From assembly GCA_026874595.1 (NCBI GenBank), contig CM049320.1:42418714-42482713 (forward strand): 64,000 nucleotides of DNA, written 5' to 3'. This document shows, in pieces, positions 4,584-44,297 of this stretch. The DNA comes from Sipunculus nudus. Lineage: Eukaryota; Annelida; Sipuncula; Golfingiida; Sipunculidae. How positions within the stretch are numbered: position 1 is the first letter of the stretch; the number at the start of each line of letters is the position of its first letter. Position numbers and translations under genes: made by a program. A model generated the notes under the pieces. That model did not search any database, was not told the DNA's origin, and saw only the letters and a program-made list of their open reading frames with translations.

Positions 4584-5424
4584 AACTAGATGTGTCGGAA
4601 CGACACGAATGCCCCCGCCTGGGGCAAATTAGAAACATTTGTTAAATTTTGTAAAAAAATGTTATGTTCGGAAGGTGTCGTATGGTCAAAAGTAGGTCAA
4701 CAAAGGAAAAATGCAAACTTGATCTGTAACGGGTCATTATCAAGCAACACACCAAAAATCAGGCCAGTATCTGCAGGCATTGTGAAAAAAAGTCCATACA
4801 TGTGCATTTTTCATAAAAATTTCTGTCTTTCATGAAATTTTCTATGTTCAGGATCTCTGTCATATGGTCAAAAATAGGTCAACTGGGATAAAACGCGAAC
4901 TCGATCTGTAACTAGTCATTATCTGCCTACACACCAAAAATCAGGCCAATATCTGCTGGCATTGCGAAAAAAAGTCCGTACATGTGTATTTGTCATGAAC
5001 ATTTATATTTTTTATGAAATTTTCTATGTTCAAGAGCCGTAAAACGGTCAAAAATAGGTCAACTAGGACGAAACGCGAACTCGATCTGTAACTGGTCAAT
5101 ATCTGCCCACACACCAAAAATCAGGCCAATATCTGCAGGCATTGCGAAAAAAAAGTCCGTACATGTGTATTTGTCATGAAAATTTCTATTTTTCATGAAA
5201 TTTTCTAAGTTAAGGAGCCGTACAACGGTCAAAATAGGTCAACCGGGACGAAACGCGAACTCGATCTGTAACTGGTCATTATCTGCTCACACACCAAAAA
5301 TCAGGCCAATATCTGCAGGCATTGCGAAAAAAAGTCCGTACAACTGTTTGATTGCGGAAGGACGGAAGGACGGACATGGGTAAAACTATATGCCCCGGCC
5401 ACTTTGTGGCGGGGGCATAAAAAA
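4584..5424 (+). mobile_element. Family B non-autonomous element with 5' palindrome, ~180-bp tandem core and 3' hairpin
   Basis: Starts ACTAGA, then the palindrome GTGTCG-gaa-CGACAC (4592-4606), then ATGCCCCCGCC (4609-4619). The core has four units of about 180 bp, each with ACACACCAAAAATCAGGCCA. It ends with repeated GGACGG, then a 13-bp hairpin (5390-5402 with 5406-5418, TTT loop, one mismatch) and an A-run. The 5' ATGCCCCCGCC is the exact complement of the hairpin's distal arm. The architecture matches Helitron/Helentron-type non-autonomous elements. Confidence 0.75.
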
Positions 5425-7163
5425 TGATCCCAGAGATGATCTCTTTAAAATTTGTTTAAATAGTATTATTTTGGTGAATTTTCACAGAGTTAAAGGAATT
5501 TGAATTCGGAATTTTTGGCCAAGTAAGGTAACTAACATTACAATCTTAGAAACGGCATGAACTAGCATCAACAAATATTATGCTAATGTTTTTCACATGA
5601 CTCTGATTTAAAATTTAGGTTTTGTACGTGGTACCACCTGCATCCACCTGTTTGTTAAGGGGGGAAACTGTTAATTATACCCTGTTTCAGCCAATACTGT
5701 TTTTAATATTTCACAAGAATAATCAAAGGGTTGGGTTCTCTCAGTTGTACAAGAGTATACGGGTTAACGTAAATCCTGTTTTTTTTTTATCACCGCGGCC
5801 TTTAAAACAAACTCAAAATCGAAAATCTCGACTTTTTTAACACAGGCTGCGGACTTAAATAGATGGTTTATCTGAAATGGACTGATAAAAGCCTGCTCCG
5901 GCCAGACATGGAACACTTGCGGGCGATAAAAGGAGATAAAGCACGCCACAGAGGAATACTCTTTGTAGTCACAGAATTATTGTATCAATTGTATGATGCA
6001 AATATCCATATACAATGTCATAGTTATTTGCATACGAATTGTCACGTTAAATTGTCAATTTTGAACAATATTAGCACTCATGACGATTAAAATGAATGAG
6101 ATTATTTAGGGTGAGACTTGTAGCGACATCTGTTAGACAGACATAATTGGTATCACCGTTCAACTGTTCATAAACTGACTAAGCCGGACAGCCTCGGTGT
6201 CTATGGAAATTGTTTATAAAAGAGTTACAAGAAATTTAATCAAGTTAATTTAGAACACTATAACATCTCTATAAAAGCTTCAGTTGGGTATTTTAAAGAT
6301 ATATTTTAATAAATCTGGTATATGTACCGTATATCGGACGGAGATATTCTTGCCAACTTATCCCTTTTCTGCAAACCTTCATCCTTGAATGCTTTTGGCC
6401 CGGTCATTTACTTTTGTATAATTTCTGGTTTTATTTTTTATATGCATTCAAGGATACATTATACGCATTTAAATACTGGTAGAGGGGGAAATCTGCTTAT
6501 GGATGTAAATGGTAGAATATTTTACCACAGCGAGTGGAATATGGCGAATAAGCGTATTTTATAGGCAGCCTGTGAAGTGCAGTATTCTTGTTTACTAATT
6601 ATTTTTTATTAGATTTGGGAAAACTGCTCTGCTGATCTGTACAAACTACTAAAAGGAAAATTGTTTTTTCTTTAATCACCCCGAAAATTGAATAATTTGT
6701 AACTGATTTTTGGTTGAGTTATAGAAAACTGAAGTTGGTCATTCATCCGAGTAAGCCCAAATCAAACTGAGGGCTGCAATAGGCATCTGTTATTTTTCTA
6801 AACATTTTATGGATATGTCAGCTTGAAAAAAGCATTGAAGCGAGAGTCTTAATATTTTAAAAAGATTTTGTAACATGCAAATATTTTGTCTGTATATATC
6901 AATAGATTGGCAGACTGGAAAGTGTCAGATTTGGCAACGAGCCAAAGGTCAGTATGGATCTATTTATAGCTTTGGCAGACTGCCAAGTGTGTCAGATTAT
7001 GCGATAGTCAAGAGTTTACTAAGTGCACCCAGCAACAGGTCTATAGTTCATTCAGTGCAGCCAGGTGCAGGTCAAAAGTTCACTCAGTGCAGTAGCTTGA
7101 GCCAGCAATTCGTTCCAGTTCACTGGGGGCAACTTCCTTTCTTACCTAAGCCTGGTTAGCCCA
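5425..7163. other. Sequence without recognisable genes
   Basis: AT-rich, with several short open frames of no recognisable family. A stretch at 6961-6990 (TATTTATAGCTTTGGCAGAC) repeats one near 2980, so part of this is dispersed repeat. Nothing else could be supported. Confidence 0.45.
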
Positions 7164-7229
7164 GTGCACCCGCTGACTCAAGAGAAGTTTGATATGCATC
7201 AGCCTTATATTTTGATGTTTTCATGCATT

Positions 7230-7400
7230 TGTTATGGCTTTCTCGTTCACAAGACTGGTGTCGCCACCTACTATGACTTTTGCACAGTGTATGTGCCTGC
7301 TTATTATATCAACCTGAAATTGTGCATATCTACACATATCAGATAGCTTTGTCTTATACAAGACTGGTGGCGCCACCTGCAATAATTTTTGTGTTGTGTG
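7230..7400 (-). repeat. Family C core fragment with GGTGGCGCCACC
   Basis: Two decayed units, one with ACTGGTGTCGCCACCTAC and one with the exact 12-bp palindrome at 7366-7377. The neighbouring sequence matches the reverse-oriented C units at 3165-4520. Confidence 0.55.
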
Positions 7401-7559
7401 CACCCATGCCAGTACTTCAGCAGTGATGTTTGTGTGATTGGTTCTTCATCAAAATGTTTGGTATTAGCATCGCTCAAGTACATATTACACGTCTTTGAAA
7501 AGAAAGGGTCCAGCATTGAAGCATTATACCTGGTGTATATGCCACTCCACAGGTTCGCA

Positions 7560-8180
7560 TAAGGCGTGTAGGCCTCGTTTTTTTCAGCTGAGCTAAAAAG
7601 TACATTCAAACGTGGTTACGATTTGTGCCCTGCTTTATTAGCAAATTTTCTATTTTCTGGAGGAGGGGGGTTATTCATTAAAGCCCGACAGCTCGGAGAA
7701 TATGGGTAACAAAGACCTAATTTCAGATGTCTGAAGAGAACTTTTGAGGAACTCTCAGGAGGTCAGGGTAGAAGATTCTAGGTCCAATGGTTATTATTTC
7801 TGTCCTGCTTTGATGTCAAATTTTCAATAATTCTAGGGGGTAATTATAAGCCCCACAGCTCGGAGAATATGGGTAACAGAGACCTAATATCAGGTTTCCA
7901 ATGAGCCTTTTCATGGACCTCCCACGCTGTCAAGCATGAGATAATGGCCTTATTTTTATAGCTGTTGTCTTATTTAGAAGAAAATGATTGCAAATGTTCT
8001 GAATATTTTGAGGAGGGGCAGGAAGATTTGTACGCCTAAAGCACATTACTCGATATTTCAGGGCAAAACAGTGAAACTAGGCATAACTGAACATTTGTTA
8101 CTGGTTCAAACAGCGAAATTGATGTTTCAAGAACACAGCATGCAGAATATAGATCACCATGGCCTTATTTAGGGTTTGCA
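7560..8180 (+). repeat. Family A copy, interrupted (continues at 10283)
   Basis: Contains CAGCTGAGCTAAAAAGTAC, two GAATATGGGTAACAGAGACC-type units and TATAGATCACCATGGCCTTA. It stops at GGGTTTGCA (8172-8180) and resumes after the same nine bases at 10283-10291. The uninterrupted paralogue is at 13561-13640. Confidence 0.75.
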
Positions 8181-8336
8181 TAGTCCATACATGGACCTCA
8201 ATGTCCCATGATACCTCTGCTGGACGGACATCACGGTCCATGGGTCCAATGTAAATTCAATATAGACACTCCGCAACGTATTTGCAACATTAGGTCGAGG
8301 GCCCTCGGAGGAGATGACAGGTCTGATCACTCGAAG

Positions 8337-8442
8337 CAGTGGCGTCAATTATTCTTCCCGGGTGGGGGGGATGACTTTGTATATTTATACACACACACAC
8401 ACACAAATATCTTTTTCAGCATCTTTGAGTGACATATTCAAC

Positions 8443-8481
<39 letters not shown>

Positions 8482-8786
8482 TTAAATGTATGTATATATA
8501 CATATATGTATATATATATATGATTATATATACACTTAATCATATTTCAAATAATTATGTTTTAATAGAAAAGTTATTTTGTTATTCAAAGCAAGGTTTA
8601 GATATAACATTTTTTAGTGAATGGATCCAAAGTCTTTAATTCTATTTATTAATATTATTCTTTTGCAATATTATAATATTATTCTCTGAAAAGCGGGGGG
8701 GGGGGGGGTGATTACATTGGCCATCCCCCCCTTTCCAAAAAGTGGGGGGTATATATACCCCCATCCCCCCTATATTGACGCCCCTG
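8337..8786. mobile_element. hAT-type MITE, copy 2 (450 bp), nested
   Basis: Ends CAGTGGCGTCAA and (inverted) CAGGGGCGTCAA, with an exact 8-bp duplication ACTCGAAG (8329-8336, 8787-8794). The right inverted repeat of the host element (about 10004-10025) keeps the uninterrupted sequence, confirming the insertion. G-runs and C-runs sit near the ends, and a CA/TA microsatellite fills 8390-8525. Confidence 0.88.
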
Positions 8787-8870
8787 ACTCGAAGAAATTG
8801 CCTCAGGCTTATAACCACTATATTCACTACCTTTTGCATGTACGATTTACATTCTAACTGACAAAAAGTC

Positions 8871-9062
8871 TTATTTTACAGGTTCTTTCTTGTACAACCC
8901 ACACAACGCTGTGTATCCAATGTGGCCATTTGTCGCAATGCAACGTGGGAAGGATTCATACTCTCCGGGCAGAGACTCCGCCTTTGAAAGGTCTCTCAGT
9001 TCACGTGAATAGGGCCTGATTATAAGATGCGGGATATCAGCAAGGAACCACAATCTGCTTTG
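8871..9062 (-). pseudogene. Unidentified protein-like fragment inside the 2.1-kb TIR element
   Basis: An open minus-strand frame of about 60 codons (including RPYSRELRDLSKAESLPG and YTALCGLYKKEP), GC-richer than its surroundings. It is preceded by a possible acceptor (AATTAACCAG) and followed by GTAAAA after the KKEP codons. I do not recognise the family. It could be a captured host exon, a transposase remnant or chance. Confidence 0.3.
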
Positions 9063-10144
9063 CGTTGATCGCGCTGGTTAATTGCAGAAATAAATAAACG
9101 TATACATAAATAGAAATTGTATCTGTAGTTGTAGATTTATGTGGCAAAATTTATTTCCTCATTCTTTCTTTGTTCAACTCCTACCGCGCTCTCTCTCTCT
9201 CTCTTTCAACTGGTAAGATATAATAACAAAATATATTAAATTTTAAGACCTTTATGTAAATATATTAAAATTTCATTCCTATAAATATATATATGTGTGT
9301 GTATGTGTTCACATAAACTTCATTCTACGAAAAATGGCCCATTATAGCAGGTACAACATCTGGAAAATAACTTCCAATAATAATCTTAATATCAATTTAA
9401 TAGTGTCTCGCATGGAAATAAAAAAGTAAATATATGAAATTATTTTCAGCAGAGCACCATATTTCACTGAGAGTTATAGTTTTTGCTAATTTAATGCCTT
9501 TTGGTTTCAACAATTTCAGCATCTTTACAGAGAAGTGGTTCGAAATTATTATGATATATTGAGCTGGATATTTTCGTGCCACTTTTACGGTCCCGCATAA
9601 TTAATTAAAAAAAAAAAAAGGTTCGCCTATACGATGTATTATTTTTAGGAAAATATATTTGAGCCCTGTAAAATGCATTTGTTAAATTTTATGAGTTAAG
9701 TTAAACATCCTGAAAAAAATAAAGCTGCACCCCAATGTAAATATAATTAAAAATAAAGATCATGAAAAATATGGCAATCTACTTGGTTAATAAAAAATGT
9801 GGGAAATAAAAGCATTTTCAAATACGTTTAAGTCATTTGTTTAAATAATGTTTGTTCACAAATTATAATTGCGTTGAAGAAGGATAACGTCTTATAAATG
9901 TGATCATTGGCAAACTTTTCACTTAAAACATGCAGATTTCATAAATAATATTTAAACGTTTAATATTTAAAATTACACAACACAGTCAGTGATTTCTATT
10001 GAGTGATTTCTTCGAGTGATCAGACTTGTCATCTCCTCCGAGGGCCCTCGACCTATCGTTGCAAATACGTTGCGGAGTGTCTTTATTGAATTTACATTGG
10101 GCCCGTGGACCGTGATGTCCGTCCAGCAGAGGTATCAAAGGACA

Positions 10145-10252
10145 TAGTCCATCTCTGGACCCTTGTGTCCTATGTTAGACCTGATGGACGGACACGTAGA
10201 CGTGTCCGTCCATCAGGTCTAACATACGACACAAGGGTCCAGAGATGGACTA
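10145..10252. repeat. 108-bp near-perfect palindrome
   Basis: Arms 10145-10197 and 10200-10252 (53 bp each) are complementary with one mismatch, separated by two bases (centre GACACGT-AG-ACGTGTC). It is absent from the matching place in the left inverted repeat of the host element. Confidence 0.9.
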
Positions 10253-10398
10253 CATAGGACATAGAGGTCCATGTATGGACTAGGGTTTGCAAGGATTTTT
10301 TTTTCAACCGAGATAAAAAGTAGACCTACAAGTCTTCAGTACTGATAGTAATAGTCATAATCAATAATCATATGAACTTTCAGGACACTATAGAGTAA

Positions 10399-10960
10399 GG
10401 GGGGGGGGGGGGGGGGGGGTAATATCGGACACTTTTGGCTTCGTCTGCTTACCATTCCATGACCAATCAAAATAACGCCGGTTTTCGGATATCATTTCAA
10501 ACCTCACGAACAGGAGATCTTTTTAAGACTAAACACGTAGAGGTCAAGCGCTCTCTAGTACAAAAAAATTGCAAGAGACGCCGCGGAGGTTCACCTGGGT
10601 AATATCGGACACCACCCGGGTAATATCGGACACCGGGCTAAACGGCGATACCTTGCGCAGGGGTTGACATTTATATCATGGAAAACTGACGTTGACAGCT
10701 GGCACAGACGCAATAACAAGAACAAAACTATGGTTTAATGGGAAAACATGGTCAAATCTTTCATTTGATCAGTTTTTCTACCAATGGTAACCCGTGGATG
10801 AGCCCTGTTTGTGGGTTTCTTCTATGGACCTGACTGCGAGATCGTGACTTGCAAAGTGCCAGACGATTCGTCACAGAAAGGCAGTTCTCACAGATCGCGG
10901 AAATTTGCAAACTAAAATGTTTTAAGCTGTTTTTTTTTTTTGTATAAAATATCAATAATT
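10399..10960. other. G-run and GGGTAATATCGGACAC direct repeats
   Basis: A G-run at 10399-10419 is followed by GGTAATATCGGACAC at 10418. The 16-mer GGGTAATATCGGACAC recurs at 10597 and 10618. These look like the end of a repeat element, but no partner end was found. The rest of the interval shows no gene. Confidence 0.4.
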
Positions 10961-10964
10961 ACTA

Positions 10965-12040
10965 TAGTCCGTTTCATCCCCTCATGTCCACCTGTTTTTT
11001 GCTATGAAAATTTTTATTAGGTACATTTCAAGGGAAACAATTATAGTGTAGAGGAGAGGATTACAGAACCTAATTTGCAACTAGGTAACTAAATTCCTAC
11101 CTGATGCCATATTTGAGTAACAGAATTTTCTTAAAATATGAGAAATCAGTCTACATTTTACAACATATCAGACCCACTTATGGCGGTCAAGGTCATTGGT
11201 CACATGCAAAAACAGCCTCAACTGATAGACTGGTACCCTGCTCTATTATGGCCCTCAGCCAAGCATAGAGACAGGCGTACAACGCCATCTTTAGTACGCC
11301 CAGTTGCAACTCCTGACTTACCTGTAGACTGGTTCCTGCACGCTCATACCGATTGTCATGGACGTTTACGCGATCCTGGCTTGTTATCCGTGAAGATTTC
11401 TTATAAAATTACTTTCTTTAGTTATTTATATTTTCCAAATATTGAAAAACGAGTTGCTGCACAAAAATTGACCGATGGATGTGTAGTTGATACGATATAC
11501 TGAGTCTTTGATATTCCACGGTACGTGGCATTGGTTTATTATCAATATCTATTAATCTAATCATAAATGTCACACGAAATGTACAGCCAACTTTAAGCAA
11601 CTTCTCTGAGCAAACGAAATGCTTATTTTTATCATATGTAATACATACTTGAATTGGAACCAGTCCGCCGGGAGTACTGAAAATGGCGTTTTACGCCCGT
11701 CTCTATGATTGGCTTAGAGCAGCGGTGCCATAATAGAGCGGGGTACCGGTCTACCTCAACTGACAGCTGCTGATTGGATGATCACATGTAAACACTCTAA
11801 ACAATATTACCAGCTAAAACAAAGATGGCTACTTATGGAGGGACACACATTTTCTGCCAGATCATAGTAAAGAGACTAAATTGTTGTGAAACATGAACGG
11901 GGGATTTATTGTAAAATTCTGAACTGCCATATTAGGTAGTCACTTCCATATGTTGTTTACTTGGAAAATATTGAAAAATACAAACTTTTAAGTAAATTAT
12001 CTACAAAAAATAGGTGGACAGCAGGTGGTGAAATGGACTA
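10965..12040. mobile_element. 1.08-kb TIR element with TA target duplication
   Basis: Inverted ends TAGTCCGTTTCATCCCC and (complement) TAGTCCATTTCACC lead into GTCCACCTGTTTTTT-like sequence, with TA on each side (10963-10964, 12041-12042). A second, internal inverted repeat pairs 11230-11340 with 11655-11756 (GCTCTATTATGGC in both). No transposase. TA duplication suggests Tc1/mariner-type mobilisation. Confidence 0.7.
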
Positions 12041-12414
12041 TAACATCCTAGATTAAATGCCGATATAAAATGTGTATTTTCCCAGTCTATAATCAATAAT
12101 ACCATTATTTCTGGTAATTCTAAAATACATTGAGATTTGAGGACTTCTGTTACGGTATGAGTCTGATGCATGCAAAATGCCGGAACTTATAGTTTTACCC
12201 TATATGAATATAAAGTGATATTTTAAATGCAAAAATGCAAATTAACATGATTATATGCAAACATAATAATAGATAAGTATAACATTTTAATATTTGCAAT
12301 TTTTTTAGTAAACTATTCAGTTATAAAAGTTGCATCCAAGAAACTTTAAATGCCGATATATATAGCAAATATGTGACATTATTACCCAGTGTACTATGAA
12401 CTTATATAGGCCTA

Positions 12415-13015
12415 CAGTCGTTCTGTTCCTGTACCCCTGTCCACCTGATTTTTCGCGATTATCTCTACACAAGACAAATTTGGCAAACAAAATTTGCACC
12501 ATTGGAATAAAGAGGCAAAAGCGTAATTTTTGGTACCTTACCCACTCACGATATAAATATTATTTACTTTACGGCCTGGTTGACATGTCTCAAATATATC
12601 CGTGGTTCATGGCGTCCCTTATATGCGGCAATTGGTTATCCTCCTTAGATATGGATATAAAGTAATGTGACGTAACAGTGAAGCTCGTGCACGCGGAGAA
12701 CACAAGTCTCGCTGTAAACAGGGGTCGGCAGCTCTTGATTATTGGTTCCGTGAATGTTTGTGCCTCTTTAGTACGTCACGTCTATTATGACGTCATCACT
12801 ATCCCCTGATATGCCAATTTAACAGATTAGTGGCAAGATGTCGCTAAAGAATAGACCAGTTACTCATAAAATGGTTTTAAATTGTTTACAGGAAAATTAC
12901 ATAAGGTAGGCTATTATTTCCATAATAGTTAATTACGCTTTTTCCTCTTTCTTACCCAAGGTCACAAATAAATAATCGCGATAAAACAGGTGGACAGGGG
13001 TGCTGGAACTGACTA
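12415..13015. mobile_element. 0.6-kb TIR MITE related to 10965-12040
   Basis: Inverted ends share ACCCCTGTCCACCTG and TCGCGAT, with flanking TA at 12413-12414 and 13016-13017. The GTCCACCTG-TTTT block is also in the neighbouring 1.08-kb element, so both probably answer to the same transposase. Confidence 0.7.
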
Positions 13016-13109
13016 TAGATGAAATAATAGTCGATGAACTGATACAAAGCTGTCATTTGTTGTCACAAAAATAGAGGGGACAGTGCATGAAGAGTAGAAT
13101 TAGGAAGAT

Positions 13110-15294
13110 GGATTTTTTATTTACTGAATGCCAAATTTTTCAGGTCGTGTCCCTATTCAGCTGAAGCATAGCTCGGGTGACATGGGAAACACCGACCTAA
13201 TTTCAGATTTCCAAGGAGATTTTTCATGGACCTCCCACGCTTTCAAATTAGAAGATTCTCGGTCCAGTGATTATGATTTGTGCCCTGTTAACGGACGACC
13301 ACATCTTTAAACGTCTAAAAACTGAGAAACAAGTGACCAATGGGTCATAACGCACAGCTGACAAGCATGAGATAATGGCCTTATTTTTACAGCTGTCTGA
13401 TTTAGAAGAAAATTATTGCAAATGTTCTAAATATTTTGTAAGGGGCAGAAAGATTTTTACGCCTGAAGCACATTACTCGATGTTTCAAGGCAAAACAGTG
13501 AAACTAGGCATGACTGAACATTTGTTACAGGTTCGATCAAACAGTGAAATTGATGTTTAAAGAACACAGTTTGCAGAATATAGATCACCATGGCCTTATT
13601 TAGGGTTTGCAAGGATTTTTTTTTCAGCTGAGATAAAAAGTACAGGTAGCGCCACAAGTCTTCAGTAACTGATAGAAATAGTCATAATCAATAATCATTT
13701 ATTATGGGTACTTACACGCTATAGAGCTCAAAGGATATGAGTAACAGAGACCTTATTTCAGATTTCCAAGGTTTTCATTGACCTCTCTGGATGTGAAGTT
13801 ACAAGATTCTAGGTCCTGTGGTTACCATTTGTGCCCTGTTAACAAATGACCACTTCATTTGAAGGTTTCAAAAATAGAGAAACAGATGTTGAAAAATTAA
13901 AAATTATCCGGTTGGTGCCACCAATCTGCGCAGGATCTGATGAAACATTCCATGATCAATAAGCATGCAAACAATCATGGTGATCAATTCAATGGTTATT
14001 CAGACACTTGATCTTATGTATCAAATTTTCAATATTTTTCCTATTGCTCGAGGATATGGGTAACAGAGACCTAATGTCAGGCTTCCAAGGAGATTTTTAG
14101 AACCACTAAGACTGCACAGGGCTTCTGATCCTTCCCCCTTACGGTAAGGACGGCAGACAATGACCCATCGCTACAGCTCAGCATGACTGAAAGTCAGCTG
14201 AGCTAAATAAAATTCGAAAAAAAATCGGAAAAAAAAGCTAGGTGGCACCACTAGTCTGCAGGAACTGATGAAACACTCCGTAGTTAATATACATGCAAAG
14301 AATCATGGTGATCAATGCATAAGTTGTTCATACACTGGAGCTTTTTTTGTCAAATTTGTAATTATTCGGGTGGGGGGGGGGGGGGCTTCTGAGCCCAATA
14401 GTTTGGAGGATATGGGTAACAGGGACCTTATTTCGGGGTTTCTGAGGAAACTTTTCATGGGCCTCCCGGATTTCAAGTTAAATGATTCCAGGTCCTGTGG
14501 TTACGATTTGTGCTCTATTAACAGATGACTGCATCTTTAAAGGTCTCAAAGATAGAGAAAAAAATGCTTAAAAATTCGAAAAAAAATCCAGGTCTGCAGG
14601 AACTGATGGAAACACTGTGATCAATATACATGCAAAGATTCATGGTTATCAATGCATTATAGTTGTTCAAATACCGGAGCTTTTGTATCAATTTTTTTAT
14701 TTTTTTCTAGGGGGTACTTCTGAGCCCCACTGCTCGAAGAATATGGGTAACAGGGACCTAATTTCAGGTTTCCGAGGAGACTTTTCATGGGCCTCCCCGA
14801 ATGTCAAGTGAGAAGATTCCAGGTCCAGTGCACGATTTGAGCCCTGTTAACAGATGACCGCATCTTTAAAGGTCTCAAAAGTAGAGCAAAAAAAACAATG
14901 TTGTAAAATTCGAAACAATACAGGTGGCACCAGTAGTCTGCAGGAACTGACGAAACACTCTTTGATCAATAAACATGCAAAGAATCATGGTTATCAATGC
15001 ATTTAAGTTATTCAGATACCGGAGCTTTTATATTAATTTTTTAATACTTCTGTGGGGTACTTCTGAGCCCCGTAGTTCGGATGATTAGGATAACAGAGAC
15101 CTAATTTCAGGTTTCCAAGGAGATTTTTCATGAACCTCTAAGACTGCACAGGGTTCATGATACTAGCCCTTACGATTACGATTTATATATATATATATAT
15201 ATATAAAATGCTAACGGACACACGGACGAAAGGACGACGGACAATTACCATTGCTATTGCTCGGCATGACTGAAAGTCAGCTGATCTAAAAATC
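13110..15294 (+). mobile_element. Family A array(s) with 5' tag and 3' hairpins
   Basis: A 5' tag ACAAGTGACCAATGGGTC lies at 13329. Units carrying GAATATGGGTAACAG..GACCTAATTTCAGG and AGGTGGCACCA-GTCTGCAGG repeat at 300-350 bp. Two 3' hairpin ends follow GACGGACAATGACC-type sequence, at about 14174-14206 and 15246-15293 (AGTCAGCTGAGCTA and AGTCAGCTGATCTA arms). Two elements may be merged, or one internally duplicated. A TA microsatellite sits at 15184-15205. Confidence 0.65.
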
Positions 15295-20864: not shown

Positions 20865-30607
<9,743 letters not shown>

Positions 30608-30660
30608 GCTTCTTTTGACAGTAAAATCACCTTCACTGCTTCATCCCATGGCTGCTTCAA
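30608..30660 (-). other. SLC35E2: SLC35E2 5' UTR segment with splice acceptor
   Basis: 53 nt separate the start codon from a good acceptor (TTTCTTTGTTTCAG|T, AG at 30662-30661). At least one more non-coding exon must lie further upstream on the minus strand. I could not place it, so the promoter and transcription start are unknown. Confidence 0.7.
30633..30649 (-). promoter_or_regulatory. Overlapping minimal uORFs in the SLC35E2 leader
   Basis: The leader contains GCAGCCATGG, a near-ideal Kozak context, opening a two-codon frame (ATG GGA TGA, 30649-30641). Its last five bases overlap a second frame, ATG AAG CAG TGA (30644-30633). Both stop before the main ATG at 30607. Such uORFs commonly lower main-frame initiation; an effect here is inference. 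Confidence 0.6.
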
Positions 30661-30808: not shown

Positions 30809-31520
30809 ACAAGGGACCCATGGGTTTCTGTGCTCAGCTGCAGCTGACCTTGAAGGTAAAAATCTAAAATAATATCAAATGGAGATAAAGTCTGAGAAGA
30901 AGAGGTACCGGTAATATAGTCTATGGTTGGTTTCTATGATTGAAGAAATTGTAGCAAATAATATTTTGTGATCTGATCATGTGTTTCCTAATGTTGAAAC
31001 TGTTGCATTGTAAGCAGTTTGAGAATATATGATCTATACTATTACCATGATCATTGGTTTGCTTTGTGATAAGCTGTTGACAGTTCAGCAAGTTACTAAT
31101 TTGTCCAATTCCTTTTTTTATTAAACCAAAATATTTTTTTTTCTATTTTATAACATATATAAGTTGCCATAAATTTCACTCAACTGGTGGAAGGGCTCCA
31201 TTGTGGTGCAAGGAGGGTGGGGTGGGGGTGTAGGGGGAGGGGGTCAGGGATAATGATGGGAGTTACAACACCTCTTTACCTCTGTATATATATTTTCTTT
31301 ATTTAATAAATTTTATGCAGTTGCAATAAAACTAGTGTCCCAAGTGCTCAGGTGCAAGGTCTCAATGGCAAGGGAGGGTAGGAGATCTTGGGGACATCTA
31401 ACATTATGCCAAATTTTGGATTTGTAGGTCAAACTTTTTCAACACTTGCCAGTCTAAAGGACCGACGGACAATGGACCATAACTATAGCTCAGATGACTT
31501 AGAGTCATCTGAGCTAAAAA
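30809..31520 (+). mobile_element. Family A element with both ends (712 bp)
   Basis: 5' tag ACAAGGGACCCATGGGT (palindrome GACCCATGGGTC, last base changed) followed by GCTCAGCTG. 3' end GACGGACAATGGACC, then a perfect 14-bp hairpin (arms TAGCTCAGATGACT and AGTCATCTGAGCTA, about 31486-31516) and AAAAA. The core lacks the usual tandem units and contains a G-rich tract. It lies directly upstream of the SLC35E2 5' UTR segment. Confidence 0.65.
31215..31243 (+). other. G-quadruplex-type motif
   Basis: Five G-runs of 3-5 separated by 1-3 bases (GGGTGGGGTGGGGG, then GGGGGAGGGGG). It fits the usual G4 pattern on the plus strand, opposite to the transporter's coding strand, about 0.6 kb upstream of its known 5' UTR segment. 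Confidence 0.6.
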
Positions 31521-32398: not shown

Positions 32399-32400
32399 AG

Positions 32401-32480: not shown

Positions 32481-33053
32481 GTGTGCTTTATGATTATCTT
32501 TGCATTCAGCATACAATTATTTAGGACCGATTTGCTATCAATATCGCCTTGTCAAAATTTTCTGTATTCCTTTGAATGAATGTTCCCAAGGAGTACATTT
32601 CTTTTAAACAACTCTAAACACACTAAAGTTAGGGTGATTTCAACAACTGTGAGAGAACTCTGTCAAAGCTGGTGTAGATGCTCTTTTAACAATGCATAAT
32701 TACACACCATAACTGTTGAAAGGTGAACCCTACACTTTAAAGTAAGACATGCTGGCTTTGTCAAACATGGGACCCATGGGTCACACTGCTCAGCTGAACT
32801 GAACTTGCCAATTCTCTGTGAACTGTAGTTTTGGTAGAAGACGGGGTAGGTCACAACAGACCTTGCTATAACCTTTCACCTCAGTGTTTCCTCAACACAG
32901 ATAAAATTGGAACTACCCCTCCCTGTAACCCATCGCCAAGGGTTCCTCCCCTAGCAACCTATGTATGTTTTATGTAGCTTACCGATGTCATTCCTTTCGG
33001 TGGAAAAAAAACAGCAGAAAAGAGGCAAGGTAAGGGGAGGGGGACACTAATTG

Positions 33054-33141
33054 GTCAGTGGTGACCTACTCCTTCCACTACGGAAACTACAATTCGCAGA
33101 GAATTGGTCAATACGTTGACTAAAAGTAGGTCACCACTGAC
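33054..33141. repeat. 17-bp perfect inverted repeat within the DIRS-like internal complementary region
   Basis: GTCAGTGGTGACCTACT (33054-33070) is the exact complement of 33125-33141. It marks the two subterminal copies brought together in the internal complementary region. Confidence 0.85.
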
Positions 33142-33189
33142 AATACCTTATGACTCGACGAAACCCAGGGTGGGAAAAACAAACATTAC

Positions 33190-33800: not shown

Positions 33801-34049
33801 AAGTAAAAATGCCTTTTTACTGGATAAATGTTATAGAGACACGCTCTTAAGTGGTTCATATGGAGAGGATTGTAAATGATCTAGATCCAAGCCCAGGTGC
33901 CAAACAGCGCGATGGGTTTTCAGGTACCCGCCTGTAATTCTACCGTAAAACGGAGAAGAGGAATTGCTGAAGAGGAAAATGAAAGCCCAAGGGTCTCAAA
34001 AGAACAAAAGCACTGTGCAATAACCTAGCTTGTAGAAAGAAGGGAGAGT

Positions 34050-34600: not shown

Positions 34601-35028
34601 GGGCAGCCAAGACGGTAGGGGGGCTAGATGAAATTTACCTGTATCTTGTTTCTTCTCTCTATTGGTCTTATCTGTAGCCCAGGACTTAGAGCCTGGACTT
34701 AGACTTATCCAGGGGGGGTGGGAGGGGAATGAGCTAATGGGGCCTTGGACATAATTAGTTCCAATTGAGTGGTTACTCAAGAAACCCGTGTCAAGGATCC
34801 TTGAAGCCTGGCTAGACAGTTGATGGAAGAGGGACAGAACCAGCGTGTTGTGCGTTGCATGACACAGAAAGGAGTGACATAGGTTTGTTTAAACAGACAC
34901 AGGTTGTAAGGAGATGAACCCTGGGAGACAAGTAACAGAGAGGTGCTGTTTCAATTTTAATCCTTGTCTAGGAAACAAGGAATGGTTATAGCAAGTCAGA
35001 GGTGATCTACTTTTAGTCTGTGTATTGA

Positions 35029-36886
35029 AACAGAAATTTGTCAAATCTTGGCATGCAAATGTTTACAGTTTTCTATATTGATGCACTAGAAAATGTAAAT
35101 CCTAATGCTACTACGATTTGGCAATATTATTGTGTCTGTCCTGAATGTACATTTCTCTTTCCCTTAAATCCATATAAATTTAAGTTATGTTGATTGTGCA
35201 CATACAATGATTATAGATGCAACATACATATATAACTATTTTATTGTTTTTATGGATACAAAAGGCTTCCAATTTTGTGAAAAAATATAGTTTAACATGC
35301 CTATAATGGCATAATCAAAATATTGACATAATACATCTATCTAGTGACTCTGAGATCTTGAGTATCAACAAGGTCTATTAATAAAAGAAAACTATTTTCT
35401 ATATACATTTAAATTTAATATATATAATATCTTCACTAACTTAAACCACCAGAAGTGGTGGGGTGCCCTAAAATCAAAGAGTTCTTACTTTACTTTCAAT
35501 CTTAGTTGTTTTAATGCAGCACATGTCCCTCTGTGAGTAGACCAGTCTGGATGACTCATAACATTTTGACAGAAATGTGAAAATGCCTGTGTATCTGCTA
35601 ACACAGAAAATCAAAGTGTCTGTTTTGGAGGTTTGAATTGGCACAGATATATCAAATTGATCTGTTTATTGCCAATTAAAGCATCAGGAACAATGTATGA
35701 ACTTCAGGAAAGGATGTGATTTTGAACCACATTGAGAATAGGTCCACACATTTATGTTAATGCTTTTTTTATCAGATAAAGTTAGTGGTGGGCCGATCAT
35801 TGAGTTTTATCAAAAGTCAGTTGGTTTGCTGCCAGTTTCAAGCGCTCGATTACCAAAGGCAACTATCGATTACATCATAATCATGAGTGCTGTTTTTCCA
35901 GAATGCCTTTAATTTATAGAGTAAAATTATTCTTCCATTTTTACAACATTCCGCGCTTCATATGATGAGTCTGTTTTCCCAAATAACACTTCAGCTCCCT
36001 GCCAGCTCACAGAGGTTTATTAAGTCCTCCGTTCTCACATCTACCGTGTTATATTCAGCACTGTGCCTATTGTTGATTTTTTTCTAGTGCATTTTGTAAG
36101 TACGTCATTTACATGAGTTTTTTTTTTCAAAAATTAAGAGTGACAAAAGACTAGTAAAATAAGGAGAAATACGCCTTAATTTCCATGGGTAATAATACAA
36201 ATCAAATATTAGTATGGTCTTAAAGTACACACAACTGCTAGTACATTTATCTGAGTATGACCCGTCAGATTCGAATTGTCGATTTTTGTGACTTTTTTTA
36301 TTATAATCATGCTGATTACTGGCACTAGAATCAAACAAAAGTGACCTAGTTTTTCAAACCAAAAACAAACAGAAATAATTACCCACAAGCCTTTAGGCAG
36401 TTTACAGTATACAAATAGTTCATACGTGATTAATTATAATTTTAGATTTCTTTTACTTTTTTTATTTTTTTCACAAAACTGTATGGGCCTTTAATTTTTT
36501 TCTGGCAGGCCTGTAAAACGAGCATGCATGTCGACAGTCATCATAACTGTTATAAAATGAAAGTCCTTGGTGGCAGTGAAGTTAAAATAATACGCGGGAG
36601 TATTCATGAGGGCCAGCAAGTAGATGTCCTAGATTGTGGTTTAATTCTTGATTATTATAAATAATTAAAATGAAACTTTGAAAAGCATATCTTACTTATA
36701 ATAGGAAAATATAACAAGGCCTACAGGCCTAATGCGAACCTGTTCAAAGTTTAGGAGTATGAATGGAGGTTTATTTTTAAAATTTAATACTGATCCTTTT
36801 AAGTCCTGCATATCTACCTTAGTCATTATGATTTCTGCAAAATGGACATTTCTGACCTGCAAGTTTCAGACTAGGACATTTTGAAA
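35029..36886. other. AT-rich sequence without recognised features
   Basis: No gene seen. At 36714 a tag ACAAGGCCTACAGGCCTAA starts a segment repeated at 50250 (see the family I/J entry). Confidence 0.5.
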
Positions 36887-38220
36887 CTAGAATATTGGCA
36901 GTCGACAAGAGACTATGTGTATCCGCAGAAATCAGAGTAGGATGAGTGAAGTGAGGCATAGATTAAGTGGCAAGGGGAATAGAGTGAGGAGTGTTGCATA
37001 TTAGCACGGATGTCTGCAGCGTAAACATGAATGTAGGTGGTGCCATCTGTCATAAAATCAAGAAAATTGTCCAGGATGTATAAACCTGCAAAATTTCAGG
37101 TGGAAAAGTCAAACCACTGCTGGGATATGAGTGATTTTATCCCAAGGCAGATGAACAGATGGACGCTGTGCATAAATTGTTGCAGGTGGCGCCACCAGTT
37201 TTGCCTATGATGAAGAGATATGTGAGATCTGTACACATGCACAATTTTGGCCCAATTGGTCAAACAGTTCCTGAGATATGATCTTGGATGTCTGCAGAGT
37301 AAATGTGAACGTAGGTGGTGCCACCTGTGATAAAATCAAGAATGCTGTCCAGGATGTATAAACCTGCAAAATTTCAGATGGATACGTCAAACCACTGCTG
37401 AGATATGATTGATTTAATCCCAAGGCAGATGATCAGGTGGGAGCTGTGCATAAACGGTTGCAGGTGGTGCCACCAGTTTTGCCTATGATGAAGAACTATG
37501 TGAGATCTATACACATGCAAAATTTTGGCTCTATCAGCCAACAGTTCCTGAGATATGAGCTTGGATGTCTGCAGAGTAAACCTGAATGTAGGTGGCGCCA
37601 CCTGTCATAAAATCGAGAAAGCTGTCCAGGATGTATAAACCTGCCAAATTTCAGGTTGATTAGTCAAACCCCTGCTGAGATATGAGTGATTTTATCCAAA
37701 AGCAGATGAACAGATGGAAGCTGTTCATAAACGGTTGCAGGTGGGGCCGTCAGTTTTGCCTATGATGAAGAGCTATGCGAGATCTATAAACATGCAAAAT
37801 TTTGGCCTAATCAGCCAACAGTTCCTGAGATATGAGCTTGGATGTCTGCAGAGTAAACCTGAATGTAGGTGGCGCCACCTGTCATAAAATCGAGAAAGCT
37901 GTCCAGGATGTATAAACCTGCAAAATTTCAGGTGGATAAGTCAAACCACTGCTGAGATATGAGTGATATTATCCCAAAGCGGATGAACAGATGGACGCTG
38001 TGCAAAAATGGTTGCAGGTGGCGCCACCATTTTTAGTTTATGTTATAAAGCTATCAAAGGGCTACATTTGTGCAAAATTTTTAGCGTGATTGGTCAAACG
38101 GTTCCCGAGATATGCGGGTTTATGTGTGGGAACAGACGCACAAATGGACGCTGGGCAGCGAGAAAAGGTCAGAGATCAAACAGAAACTAGGGTGCAGCAG
38201 TTCACATGTGACCTGATGAT
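36887..38220 (+). mobile_element. Family C element, copy 2, 3' end missing, expanded core
   Basis: 5' CTAGAATATTGG with a decayed hairpin and TGTATCCGC. The core has more units than copies 1 and 3, with exact GGTGGCGCCACC at 37185, 37591, 37868 and 38017. The sequence runs to CAGTTCACATGTGACC, as in the other copies, but the CGG run and terminal hairpin are absent. Confidence 0.7.
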
Positions 38221-38639
38221 AAACCCTATTTGCTTAAAATGCAAACCAAGTTTTTTCAAACAGTTGAAAGATATAGTTCCAATAATCTTGGAATTCTGCA
38301 TCTAAACATTGTGTCTTGACGTCTAGACACATTGTCTAGACACCCCCCCTGAGCCAGGTCAGTTGCCATGGTGATGTCTGGACCCCACCTGTTTGTACTG
38401 AGTGACCTCTTGACTTGGCTGCTGAAACTCAGCAAGTCGTCAAATCTGTTTTCAAATACAGAAAGCCTTTTTCAATTGGCTACAATGCTTTTTAAAAGCT
38501 GTATTTACCCAATCTATTCTTATAAAACTGGCAGAACCCTACCATAGAATAATTCTTGTAAAGTTTAAACCAATCAGCTTAACAGTTTCATCATAAATCA
38601 GTTTATAAGCTAGAAGAGTTTAAAATTACATTTTCGCTT

Positions 38640-39150
38640 GTAAAAAACACATTAATGTAGGTGGCGCCACCAATACCTCAAAATCAGATCTGACATATAT
38701 GACAAACATTGGTATAAAATTTGGTGATTACAGCTCTAGCCGTTTCTGAGATTTTAAGTTTAGTATGCTTTTTTGCACAGATGACTAAGTTCAACTTCCT
38801 GTAACTAGGCAAAAAGTCTCCGAACTGGAACCATTCAAACAAACTTGAGAGAGATTGTTCCAAGGAACATTTCTGTGAAATACTGAACAATTTGGCTGGA
38901 CAGTTTCGGAGAAGAAGATTTTTAAAGCTTTTTTAGCTTTTTCCCTATAAAATCTAAGAAAATGCAGTTAAAAAAAAAATAAACAAAATCCGATATAGTT
39001 TTTTGGATGACTGATTATTTGCATAAAATTTGGTGATGCTAGCTCCTGCTGTTTTTGAGATAAGTATGGTTAACGTACAGACAATGCACGATGCACACCG
39101 CACGACGGACGACGCTGCACAGGTTCGCTAAAAAAGGCAAAAACTTCTTT
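38640..39150 (+). repeat. Family F fragment
   Basis: Begins near AATGTAGGTGGCGCCACCAA (exact palindrome at 38660) and ends in GCACGACGGACGACGCTGCAC then GCTAAAAAA in decayed form. It resembles the 3' end layout of families A-C, but no clear hairpin was found. Confidence 0.4.
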
Positions 39151-39867
39151 TCTTAAGGTATATATATATATACTGTGGCTGGCGTTTAGTTAGAGAAGGT
39201 TTCAAAATAACAATAAAATCTTTGCACATAAGCAGCCACATCTACACATTCACGTGAACACTAACTTTTTTGTATAGCATCAATGGCATTTCACAAATAT
39301 TTTGCCAGTAGCATCATTATTAGCATATGTAAACCATAATACAAAAGTTGATAATTTAAATAGTATCAATACTTCTCTATATGTGCCTTTATTGCATGTC
39401 TACCTGTTCCATGTTCCCTCAGCTATTCGTGCAGCTTCTATGAATATGAGTGTGTGTTAGGTAATTCATAATAATTGTTATGTACATTGTGTATGTAACT
39501 GCAAGGCAAATCATGATAAACAAAGCCCCCAAGGACAAGTTGAAGAAGCGAAAAATTGCTAACATTTAACCTTTCTCAACCACAGTATGTAAGCTATTCA
39601 TTTATTACATACACTATCCAACATGGCATATAATAGATATAATAGCTGAGACAATGTACATGCCAATTATTAGTCAAAACATCTACCTGATTCAAGAATA
39701 TTGAAAACTCTGATCAATTAACCTGAGAATAAGCTGGAATATTAACAAAGTTTGAGGTAAGATAAAACTCTCTCATCATTTTGAAGTTTAACAGATTTAT
39801 ATTTGAATAACTGAACCAATTATAAGTCCATTATTGATCAATTTGCTCAAAGGGATGATTGATTATG
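39151..39867. other. AT-rich sequence, nothing recognised
   Basis: Includes a short TA tract near 39160. No gene or repeat end supported. Confidence 0.4.
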
Positions 39868-40489
39868 CAGGGCTTGACACTAACTTTTGAATGTACTTGC
39901 CAAGTAGGGCAAGTAACAACTAATCTTTACTTGCCCTACAAGTATTTTAACTTGTCCTACAACAATCAGGGATTAGTGATCACAGCCTCAAACACAAATA
40001 GTGTGTTCCACATGACATTTTGCAACAATAAACATGTTCAACTGATTGTTTGTTAATAATATTTTTCTGTAGCATATGCACATATAAACATACAGGTAAT
40101 ATTTTATACAGGAACAGTGGAACCCCACAATTATGACCGCCCCGAGGACTGACCAAAGTGGTCATAATATGGGGGTGGTCACATTTGTGAAATTCTAAGT
40201 TACCTGGATCATATAAAAGGGACCAAGAAAAGTGGTCGTAATTGTGGGGTGGTCACAATTGTGGGGTGGTCATAAGGTGGGGTTCCACTCAATGACAAAA
40301 TGATTTATTTTCTCAAAGAAAGAAAACGGCTAACTGAATCAGCAGAGATTCAGGCCTTTGGGTACAGGTTTAGGTTGGACCTACTAGACCAGACAGGCAA
40401 GTAGGAGCCCACTTTAAGATGCCCTACCACCAATTTCTGGAACTTTTATTAACCCAGGGCAAGTGGTTAACTGTTAATGTCCAGCCCTG
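39868..40489. mobile_element. hAT-like MITE with nested small TIR element
   Basis: Ends CAGGGCTTGACACTAAC and (complement) CAGGGCTGGACATTAAC are typical hAT termini. ACTTGCC repeats follow inside. No exact 8-bp duplication remains (TGATTATG against TAATGAAA). A second element is inserted at 40115-40290. Confidence 0.65.
40115..40290. mobile_element. 176-bp TIR MITE (CAGTGGAACCCC ends)
   Basis: Inverted ends CAGTGGAACCCCAC and GAGTGGAACCCCAC are followed by TTATGACC on both sides. The middle repeats GTGGTCATAA and ATTGTGGGGTGGTCA. The ends resemble pogo/Tigger-type termini, but flanking TA is not evident. Confidence 0.65.
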
Positions 40490-41078
40490 TAATGAAATAT
40501 GTACCAACTTCTACCACTAATATTAACATGTCTATGTTTGTGTGAAATATTATGAACATATGTTACGTACATATGTTTTTTTTTTTTTGGTATATAGTTT
40601 GTAATTAGTACTGAGTATTTCCACAATAACTGATTTACACATACCTTGGAATTTCTTTGTGACTGTACAATGTTTATATCTGATCCTCCCTGTATCTCTA
40701 ACATGGTATACATACCTTGTATAATGTTCTGTACGGGGTTCACAGTAACTGCCCTGCATTTTACACTCTATACATGTCGCTTATGTTGATAATAAACTAT
40801 TGAGAAGTAGACCATCATGGAGGCACTAAGATATTCAAATGGAAAACATATACAGCACAGAGTACAAGTATAAAGGCCCAAACATGATGACTGCAGGGAC
40901 TGTTCTGACTGACCCATGACCCCATGCCGAGTGAAAGGGCCACAAAAGCAAAAGTCCCTGATAACACATCACCTGATTGAATAAAGTATATATACCACTG
41001 ACTTAATAAATGTACAAAGGTGGTGCAGTTATTTATAATCAGATAAAAACTGTGCAGTATGATCTACAACTGATATTT

Positions 41079-41148
<70 letters not shown>

Positions 41149-41262
41149 ATATATATATATATATATATATATGCATTATTTTGCTTTGTTATAAGCTATA
41201 TATGTTGAAGTATATATTTACAGTGAAACCTGGTATTGCCACATTCCTAGGGACAAACAAAA
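40490..41262. other. No gene; contains a (TA)n tract
   Basis: A TA microsatellite occupies about 41082-41172, with a small interruption. The rest is unique and AT-rich. Confidence 0.5.
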
Positions 41263-44200
41263 CAAGTGATCCGTGGGTCATGACTCTAAGCTGACTGGGC
41301 AGAGATTCGCAAAAGGAAATTTTATCATCAGAATGGTAGTATATACCCATTCAACAGATTAACCAACAGGCCAAGATTCTGTCTGTATTTATATATCTCA
41401 AAAATAGAGAAAAAAATGGGTAAACTTTAAAAACTAGAATATGGGTAGTCATCAAGTGACTATGTGTATCCGCTAATATCAGAGTGGAACGGGTGAAGTA
41501 AGGCATGGATTGAGTGGCAAGAGGAAACAGAGTGAAGTGTGTTGCATATTAGCATGGATGTCTGCAGCCTTAATGTGTATGTAGGTTGTGCCACCTACCA
41601 CAAATCAAGAAATCTGTCCAAGTTGTTTACATATGCAAAATTTTAGGCAGATAAGTCCCTACACTAAGGTCACTACATGTATATGAGTGGTTTTAGCCCA
41701 CAGCAGACAAACAGACAGATGCTGTGCAAAAATGGTTGCAGGTGGCCCCTCCAGTTTTGTGTATGATAAAGACCTATGTGAGATCTAATTACATGCACAA
41801 TTTTGGCCCAATCGGTCAAATGGTTCCCGAGACAAGAACTTGGATGTCTGCAGCGTAAACTAGAATGTAGGTGGTGCCACCTGTCATAAAATCAAGAAAG
41901 CTGTCCAGGATGTATAAAACTGCAAAATTTTAGGTAGATATGTCAAACCACTGCCGAGATATGAGTAATATTATCCCACAGCAGACAAACAGATGGATGC
42001 TGTGCAAAAATGTGTGCAGGTGGCGTCACCAGTTTTGTGTATGATAAAGAGCTATGTGAGATCTATACACATGCCAAATTTTGGCCAAATCGTTCAAACG
42101 GTTCCCGTGATATGAGCTTGGATGTCTGCAGTGTGAACGTGAATATAGGTGGCACCACCTGTCATAAAATCAAGAAAGCTATCCAGAATGTATACGCATG
42201 CCGAATTTCTGGTGAATCAGTCAATTCACTGCAGAAATATGAGTGATTTTAACCCAAGGCAGATGAACAGATGGACACTGTGCAAACATGGTTGCAGGTG
42301 GCGCCACCATTTTTTTGTATATTAAAAAGAGCTATCCAAGGGCTACATTTGTATAAAAAATTTTTTCCTGATCGGCAAACGGTTCTAGGGATATGAGGGT
42401 TCATCTGTGGAAACAGACGCACAAATGGATGCTGGACAGAGAGGAAAGGTCAAAGGTCAACACAAATTGGTTAGGCACCAGATCACATGTGACCCAATAA
42501 TTGGTGTAAGTTTCGGAAAAATCGGTCAAGTAGTCTCAGAGGAGTTCTCCGGAAACGAATGCGGCAGCGGCGGAACCCGGTCAAAAACATAGTATCTGCA
42601 AAACTTCGTTTTGGCGGATACAAAAACATAGGTGGCTCCACCAGTCTGCAGAAACTTATAAAAACACTTAATGGTCAATATTCATGCAAAGAATCATGCT
42701 GATCTCTGCATTAGTTGTTCAGATACTTCAGCTTTTGTATAAAATTTTCCATTATTCTGAGGGATACTTCGGAGTCCTATAGCTTGAAGGATACGGGAAA
42801 CAAAGACCTCATTTCAGGTTTCCACAGACACCTTTAATGGGCCTCCTTGCATGACAAGAATGAAGATTCTAGGTCAAGTTGTTATGATTTGTACCCTGTT
42901 GACAGAAAACCACAACTTTAGGTCTCAAAAATAGAGAAAAAAATTCGTAAAAATTTGAAAAAAAATACCCAGTCTACAGAAACTGATGTATGCCAAATCA
43001 ATATGTATGCCAAAAATCATGACCATCAGTGATGTAGTTATTGAGATACTGCAGTTTTTGTATCAAATTTTTTAATTATTCTGGGGAGTATTTTTGAGCC
43101 ATACAGCTTAAAGGATATGGGTAACAGAGACCTAATTTCAGGTTTCCATGGAGACTTCATGGGTCTCCCTGTGTGTCAAGAATGAAGATTCTAGGTCCAG
43201 TCATTACGATTTGTACCCTGTTAAATACATCCTTAAAGGTCTCAAAAATAGAGAAAAAAAATTGTGAAAATCTGAAAAAAATACAGGTGGCGCCACCAGT
43301 CTGGATGAACTGATGGAACACCTCTTGATCAATATGTATGCCAAAAATCATGACCATCAGTGTTGGAGTTATTGAGATGTTGTAGTTTGTTTATTAAATT
43401 TTCCATTATTCTGGGGGTAATTGGGAGCCCTACAGCTCAAAGGTTATGGGTAACAGGGACCTTATTTCAGGTTTCCATGGAGACTTTTCATAGGTCTCTC
43501 AGTGTGTCAAGAATGAAGATTCTAGGTCCAGTCTTTATGATTTGTGCCCTGTTAACAGATGTTCACATTTTTAAAGGTCTCAAAAATAGAGAAAACAATT
43601 CGTAAAAAATAAAAAAAAAGTGGCCCCACCAATCTGCAGAAACTGATGAAACATCTCATGATCAATATGTATGCCAAAAATCATGACCATCAGTGATGTA
43701 GCTAATGAGATATTGAAGTTTTCCTAAGAATTTTTTTACTATTCTGGGGGATACTCTAGGGCCCCATAGCTCAAAGGATATGGGTAACAGATACCTTATT
43801 TCTGGTTTCCATGGAGACTTTTCTAAGGTCTCTCAGTGTGTCAAGAATGAAGATTCTATGTCCGGTCTTTACGATTTGTGCCCTGATGTTCACATTTTAA
43901 AAGGTTTCAAAAACAGAGAAAAAAATTCGTAAAAAGTCAAAAAATATAGGTGGCTCCACCTGTCCGCAGGAACTGATGGAACATCTCATGATCCATATGT
44001 ATGCCAAAAATCATGACCATCAGTGAAGTAGTTAATGAGATATTGAAGCTTTTGTATGAAATTTTTTACTATTTTTGGGGGTACTTTGGGGCCCCATAGC
44101 TCGAAGGATATGGGTAACAGAGACCTAATTTCTGGTTTCCAAGGAGATTTTTCATGGACCTCTCAGAATCCCAAGTAACAAGATATTAGGTCCAGCTGTT

Positions 44201-44297
44201 ACGATTTGTGCCTGGTTAACAGACGAAAAGTCAGATGGATGACGGACAAAGAGTGATCGCTATAGCTCAGATGACTTTCAGTCAGCTGAGCTAAAAA
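41263..44297 (+). mobile_element. Family A element containing a nested family C copy
   Basis: 5' tag ACAAGTGATCCGTGGGTC (41262-41279). After a C insertion at 41434-42621, five A units of 324-334 bp follow (AAGGATATGGGTAACAG marks at 42787, 43111, 43440, 43774, 44104), each with AGTCTGCAGAAACTGATG-type blocks. The 3' end is GACGGACAAAGAG, a 14-bp hairpin with one mismatch (44263-44276 with 44280-44293) and AAAAA. No coding capacity. Confidence 0.75.
41434..42621 (+). mobile_element. Family C element, copy 3 (1188 bp), nested in family A
   Basis: 5' CTAGAATATGGGTAGTC..GACTAT then TGTATCCGC; 3' TCCGG, CGG-rich, then GTATCTGC..GGCGGATAC. An exact GGTGGCGCCACC lies at 42297. It is inserted in an A-run of the A unit (..TTAAAAA before, AAAAACATAGG after), as judged from uninterrupted A units elsewhere. 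Confidence 0.78.

Follow-up and report, generated by a model that had tools for sequence, protein, structure and literature searches.

What are the repeat families that recur along a 64-kb stretch of the Sipunculus nudus genome, and what machinery copied them? The stretch (hereafter the window: 64,000 nucleotides, 36% GC; assembly GCA_026874595.1, contig CM049320.1, here C15, positions 42,418,714 to 42,482,713) carries elements with tandem-repeat cores, of which families A, B and C are treated here, and a preliminary description made from its letters had proposed that these families, although unrelated in sequence, share one architecture. Our analysis indicates, with a probability of roughly 0.93, that A, B and C belong to the Helitron2/Helentron type of rolling-circle transposon as non-autonomous members, termed Helentron-associated interspersed elements (HINEs), a known kind of element. 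The observations that carry this conclusion are the ends themselves, an asymmetric terminal inverted repeat (ATIR) specific to each family, insertion between T's with no target duplication, the nesting of one family in another, and the presence elsewhere in this genome of an autonomous Helentron with the same architecture.

The searches covered the 1.43-Gb assembly in 153 contigs, and for each query the best 40 candidates were scored, the first-look candidates numbering 3500 for B, 12,696 for C and 4922 for A. Twenty B copies, ten C copies with both ends and 15 A copies (12 left ends only and three whole stretches, each with a hairpin end) were fetched, and the window copies were added to them. 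Published work is cited by PMC number.

Ends, inverted repeats and insertion sites

On the strand on which the window was first read, A, B and C have the same order of parts: a tag and a palindrome come first, then a motif whose complement lies in the far hairpin, then the core, and on the far side a hairpin followed by an A-run. By direct reading and a motif scan of the window, the motifs listed in the preliminary description were present at their positions or one to two bases off, and the perfect palindromes it quoted are pooled from different copies of each family. For instance, the A palindrome at 30810 is GACCCATGGGTT and a perfect one is found at 32768-32785, while the C palindromes are TGTATCTGCC at 28541 and TGTATCCGCT at 41434. 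Helitron2 elements have two hairpins and ATIRs of 8-15 bp; the 5' ATIR begins 0-2 bp from the 5' end and pairs with its downstream neighbour, the 3' ATIR lies about 20-30 bp inside, upstream of the 3' hairpin, and insertion occurs after TTTT (PMC3627910). When A, B and C are flipped, their order is the published one, and therefore the "3' hairpin, A-run" of the preliminary description is the 5' end and its "tag plus palindrome" is the 3' end, so that the polarity it assigned has to be reversed by this terminal convention. A counterpoint is that the autonomous family described below encodes its RepHel protein on the strand first read. The opposite strand of B gives T-run, ATGCCCCCGCC-ACAAAGT-GGCCGGGGCAT ... 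GGCGGGGGCAT, TC, GTGTCG-TTC-CGACAC, AT, CTAG, TT. Hairpins are present at both ends, with loops mostly of 3-5 nt, and in the flipped elements the ATIR arm directly follows the T-run, inside the 5' hairpin, at the 0-2 bp distance of Helitron2. GTCC-like stretches adjoin the 5' hairpin in A and B and a CCG run adjoins it in C, as judged by eye only.

These ends recur precisely. Among 52 tagged ends (20 B, 13 C and 19 A, which are not all independent insertions, since a single composite contributes 6 of the 13 C ends), AA stands ahead of the tag in 48, while AA makes up 10.8% of the dinucleotides of the window, and the tag is CTAG or CAAG in 47. Both ends were matched by the pattern used in 18 of the 20 fetched B copies, 19 with the window copy, copies L015 and L016 each missing one end; in 17 of the 19 complete copies the flipped strand has at least five T's ahead of the 5' end. 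The tag and the hairpin bound dispersed copies exactly, at unrelated sites. In the 3' hairpin of C, 4-7 of 7 Watson-Crick pairs are formed in each of 13 copies; the changes among them are mostly one-sided or pair-breaking, and the double changes are too few to speak for or against covariation.

The complementarity between the two ends exceeds what shuffled sequences provide. The longest perfect end-to-end complement is 11 bp in B, 14 bp in C, 10 bp in A and 13 bp in the autonomous family, values reached in 1, 0, 4 and 0 of 5000 shuffles, respectively, where the C, A and autonomous ends were taken from genome copies and A was a consensus. All four lie within a range of about 8-15 bp, and the repeats are asymmetric, as expected of ATIRs. 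Between the ends of different families the complements are only 3-6 bp, and the near side of the 3' ATIR lies 23 (B), 31 (C), 22 (A) and 21 (autonomous) nt from the 3' terminus. For single window copies, the observed value was reached in 0 of 5000 shuffles for B, 99 for C28541 and 3 for C41434, and in 722, 11 and 20 for the A copies A30809, A41262 and A13329, so that A30809 and C28541 singly would not convince. The shared end architecture, and the complementarity of the motif after the palindrome to the far hairpin arm, are therefore borne out as features of the families. Because their ATIRs differ, A, B and C would count as separate families under the published rule, which asks for at least 11 bp of identical subterminal inverted repeat (subTIR; PMC4067079).

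The insertion sites point in the same direction. When the flanks of the C element at 41434-42622 are joined, seven A-core stretches in the window match straight across the joint, some of them being parts of the very A element that hosts this C. For the window B copy, the joined flanks match 38927-38739 at 68%, and for the B copies L010, L011, L021 and L028 matching empty sites in other loci were found among the matches listed, several of these loci being overlapping fetches of one place. The joined flanks of C28541, which sits between two A stretches, gave no empty-site alignment at the threshold used. No target duplication beyond the ambiguity of the T/A runs was seen in the empty-site comparisons of the copies examined. 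These comparisons, together with the AA ahead of the tag, agree with the proposed TT/AA insertion; in the copies examined the ends fall at the described features and show no duplications of the cut-and-paste kind.

One nesting of C in A has also been multiplied. The joined flanks of 6 of 12 C copies (the window copy at 41434 and five of the ten fetched) are 95-98% identical to one another, and those of the remaining copies are 64-85% identical to the six and to one another; A core units match the six composite flanks at 76-85%. The comparison was permissive, and even unrelated flanks score 64-79%, so that the 95-98% block alone is informative. It is the product of a single C insertion into an A core, later copied onward along with its surroundings. 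The mover of this composite may have been A; composites arising via self-insertion have been proposed for the Fusarium element FoHeli (PMC5148889).

An autonomous Helentron in the same genome

The Rep domain PF14214 of Pfam has 143 matches in the genome, some in open frames of up to 2426 aa. One copy, on contig C7, has an 1882-aa frame with DUF6570, OTU, Helitron_like_N and PIF1 domains, and two further frames with Pif1 2B and Exo_endo_phos domains; since its domains are split over three frames, its reading frame is interrupted. A second copy, on C11, has a 2235-aa open frame at Rep. Comparison of the two fixed the left end as AAA|CAAG ATGACCAGAGGTCA CGC GCTTGCCGGAAAT and the right end as GCTTGCGGAAATC-GAA-GATTTCCGGCAAGC|AA, and by these ends the C7 element spans C7:31563968-31589513 (25,546 bp). 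Identity between the copies is 98.4% across 12.6 kb and 99.4% across 7.2 kb, a comparison outside which lie about 6 kb of the C11 copy, save for the 3.6-kb stretch L032, which is 99.7% identical to L031. Remnants of the right hairpin occur inside the element, and for this reason it may itself be composite. Among the best 40 genome candidates, every one of the 40 left ends scored has the same 102-bp sequence, which indicates recent movement or homogenised arrays. Furthermore, at two places on C11 the right hairpin is followed by AA and then by the next left end; such head-to-tail joints (hairpin-AA-CAAG) fit a circle or run-on step. In other units (L081, L082 and the C11 autonomous copy), the left end follows a microsatellite and no hairpin. 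The RepHel frame points from the tag end towards the hairpin end and is thus reversed relative to the terminal convention, an arrangement known for some Helitron2 elements (PMC3627910) and for one Drosophila Helentron (PMC4067079).

Right-end hairpins of this family also form clusters spaced at about 60-90 bp (C1:66369163-66369555, C10:31661895-31662393 and C12:40215104-40215527), as if the terminal hairpin had been multiplied. The Helentron protein (L050:1488-7133) bears an N-terminal array of 23-residue repeats (Pfam STPRs), encoded by 69-bp DNA repeats in 13.9 copies.

The preliminary description had called for an autonomous Rep/Helicase element with the same ends. An element of the same architecture exists, at 25.5 kb, and with its own short units it forms a system in which Rep, helicase and endonuclease go with shared ends; in the stretches read, none carries the ends of A, B or C. 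These stretches comprise one family whose ends were fixed, of the 143 PF14214 matches, and the 6 kb downstream of eight further Rep matches, where no clear right end was seen. Near a Rep-bearing frame on C7, at about position 3329 of L092, there is a hairpin end of B type, and its orientation is the one to be expected had B inserted there independently.

Proposed mode of copying and alternative explanations

A RepHel-endonuclease that a Helentron provides in trans would make the copies of A, B and C, acting on an element with the anatomy TTTT | 5' ATIR inside 5' hairpin | core | 3' ATIR | 3' hairpin | CTWG | TT. Rep would nick next to the 3' hairpin, at the CTWG|TT end, and one strand would be copied out, until, following the proposal of Bao and Jurka, the 3' ATIR pairs with the 5' ATIR, opens the 5' hairpin and stops replication; a single-stranded or circular product would then enter an oligo-T site. 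In agreement with a non-autonomous nature, no coding sequence belonging to A, B or C was found in the ten of 194 window frames that were scanned.

Several points weigh against placing A, B and C among the HINEs. The decayed A copies and one C copy of the window miss significance on their own, and several of the empty sites are not alleles, being repeat units from within this genome. Among the stretches read, no Helentron bore the ends of A, B or C. The 3' ATIR at 21-31 nt fits the spacing of Bao and Jurka and falls short of the 38-60 bp reported for the 3' subTIR of mite HINEs (PMC4067079). In addition, the autonomous family is coded in the direction opposite to that of most Helentrons of mites, mosquitoes and flies (PMC4067079).

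The explanations outside rolling-circle transposition fare worse. That these are cut-and-paste miniature inverted-repeat transposable elements (MITEs) with tandem cores might be suggested by short, non-coding, abundant copies with hairpins at their ends, yet their inverted repeats are asymmetric, there is no duplication beyond T runs of varying length, the joined flanks align across the joint, and the empty sites contradict it, which leaves it very improbable. Satellite arrays that border hairpins by chance would account for the tandem cores, yet not for a tag and a hairpin bounding dispersed copies at fixed ends and unrelated sites, nor for family-specific ATIRs, and we give this explanation the least credence of all. 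The canonical Helitron1, with 5' TC, 3' CTRR, A/T insertion and no 5' hairpin, was rejected on the T/T target and the 5' hairpin seen here; its CTRR would accommodate the 3' CTAG of B and C, though not the CTTG of A. Within rolling-circle transposition, the question is which Helentron did the copying. Probably every family is, or once was, served by an autonomous Helentron of its own whose ends match, in keeping with the published scheme: the autonomous family shares its left end, its right hairpin and 148-bp core repeats (seen in the element and in L081) with its own short units, although the stretches read contained no such partner of A, B or C. One machinery may nonetheless be common to the three, as the preliminary description had supposed. 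If it recognised shape (CTWG|TT with a 3' hairpin, a short-loop 5' hairpin and ATIR exchange) and not sequence, it could move several unrelated families, the C-in-A composite included. The common tag, hairpins, ATIR spacing and target, combined with ATIR letters that differ and the want of a family-specific partner, speak for such recognition, and a partner search in which ends were fixed for one family out of the 143 Rep matches and the fact that published HINEs have the same ends as their Helentrons (PMC4067079) speak against it, making it an unlikely arrangement.

Window contents and comparison with known elements

The features of the window are collected in the table. For families I and J only the tagged palindromic end was seen, with no far hairpin in the window.

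Table. Repeat elements, element ends and arrays in the window (strand as the flipped, conventional orientation; "first-read" refers to the forward strand)
Feature	Position	Strand	Details
B element	4586..5418	-	833 bp; flipped: T-run, 5' hairpin with ATIR ATGCCCCCGCC, core, 3' ATIR, 3' hairpin, CTAG, TT
B 3' hairpin	4592..4606	-	first-read 5' palindrome
B 3' ATIR	4609..4619	-	complementary to far hairpin arm
B tandem core	4684..5342	-	unit about 180 bp, 3.7 copies
B 5' hairpin	5389..5419	-	first-read 3' hairpin, then A-run on +
C element between two A stretches	28541..29715	-	3' hairpin 28552-28570, 3' ATIR 28571-28581, 5' hairpin 29686-29715
C copy, tag end and core	36887..38213	-	far hairpin not found
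C element nested in A element 41263-44294	41434..42622	-	5' hairpin 42592-42621
A element carrying C	41263..44294	-	5' hairpin 44263-44293
A element without clear tandem core	30810..31516	-	5' hairpin within 31484-31518
A stretch	13330..15288	-	tag end 13330; hairpin ends 14175-14205 and about 15257-15288
A hairpin end	27663..27692	-	
A hairpin end, right of C nested at 28541	29940..29976	-	
A tag end	32766..32800	-	perfect palindrome, tag CATG
Array (called D) related to C core	3132..4516	+	opposite orientation
Family I tag end	36714..36852	-	ACAAGGCCTACAGGCCT; far end not found
Family I, second copy	50250..50384	-	87% identical over 140 columns
Family J tag end	50144..50161	-	CAAG TTGTCC-GA-GGACAA; far end not found
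Further tag-like end	44426..44460	-	CAAG + GCCCATGGGC; far end not found

The description of the families as unrelated in sequence holds for their ends and fails in part for their cores. The array at 3132-4516 is related to the C core and lies in the opposite orientation (E as low as 8.6e-33), and a GGTGGCGCCACC box is common to the A and C/D cores. Beyond this box the similarity of A to C/D is weak (profile matches at E 0.0078-0.67; in a core consensus test, 1 of 200 shuffles for A-D, 38 and 74 of 200 for A-C), and homology of the A core to C/D was considered and is not claimed. Profile and consensus comparison of the B core with the other cores gave nothing significant. The 12-bp palindrome GGTGGCGCCACC is found in the cores of A, C and the 3132-4516 array, and also at 7366, 1397 and 38660.

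Elsewhere, a long satellite-like array of 168-171-bp units and 339-bp dimers occupies 53120-64000 and reaches the window end. A near-perfect fold-back of 108 bp occupies 10145-10252, its 53-bp arms being 96% complementary, and a stretch related to it lies at 8183-8336; it has the look of a further short inverted-repeat element. Only one of the ten scanned frames scored above the curated cut-off, giving the window at least one exon of a TPT/SLC35-type transporter gene, at 24008-24334 (minus; E 2e-27), and no Rep was found among these ten of the 194 frames listed. A sub-threshold TPT match lies at 30041-30640 (minus), and the A and C copies at 28.4-30.0 kb, between the two TPT matches, are probably in an intron. 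B-core and A-hairpin patterns had no matches in the collections viral_contigs and genome_contigs, which, being of viruses and prokaryotes, say little here.

The nearest published counterparts fit the kinship proposed in the preliminary description, with Helentron-associated and bivalve-type elements that have minisatellite cores and A/T insertion, as far as the terminal features tested go. HINEs of the Pacific oyster C. gigas have a 5' subTIR with a complementary inverted repeat, a GTCY/GTCC microsatellite, a core, a 3' subTIR, a palindrome and oligo-T, with no target site duplication (PMC7492417). A, B and C are like them in the satellite-like tandem core, the subTIR with its inverted repeat, the 3' palindrome, the oligo-T and the lack of duplication, and A and B, by eye, may also be in the microsatellite beside the 5' structure; in family sequence they appear to differ from them. 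The Pearl and CvA, CvE and CvG elements of bivalves, compared by description only, likewise combine unlike sequences with a common structure and short central repeats, and the B core may resemble oyster repeats. These resemblances to the literature would suggest a bivalve kinship of A, B and C. Helentrons and HINEs of mites, mosquitoes and flies share RepHel with an endonuclease, palindromic subTIRs, a 3' stem loop, a TT target and an unmodified target site (PMC4067079). Helitron2 is similar in its two hairpins, ATIR size and spacing and insertion after TTTT (PMC3627910), and differs in that its proteins have no endonuclease domain, according to PMC4067079, whereas the protein found here has one. 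FoHeli is similar in its hairpins at both ends, a GAA loop in examples, an ATIR and evidence for joined ends, and is described with another target and without an endonuclease (PMC5148889).

The relation of the oyster HINEs to an autonomous Helentron was reported as unsettled (PMC7492417), and among the titles and abstracts searched, with subscription papers and Repbase outside the search, no paper was seen in which shared ends tie bivalve HINEs to an autonomous Helentron. In S. nudus, a single genome combines HINE families that have precise ends and empty sites with a multiplied composite and a young autonomous Helentron of the same architecture, whose own short units have its ends and core repeats. 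Two questions can be put to this system in concrete form: whether it is the sequence or the structure of an end that Rep recognises, and by what route tandem repeats are spread by rolling-circle elements.

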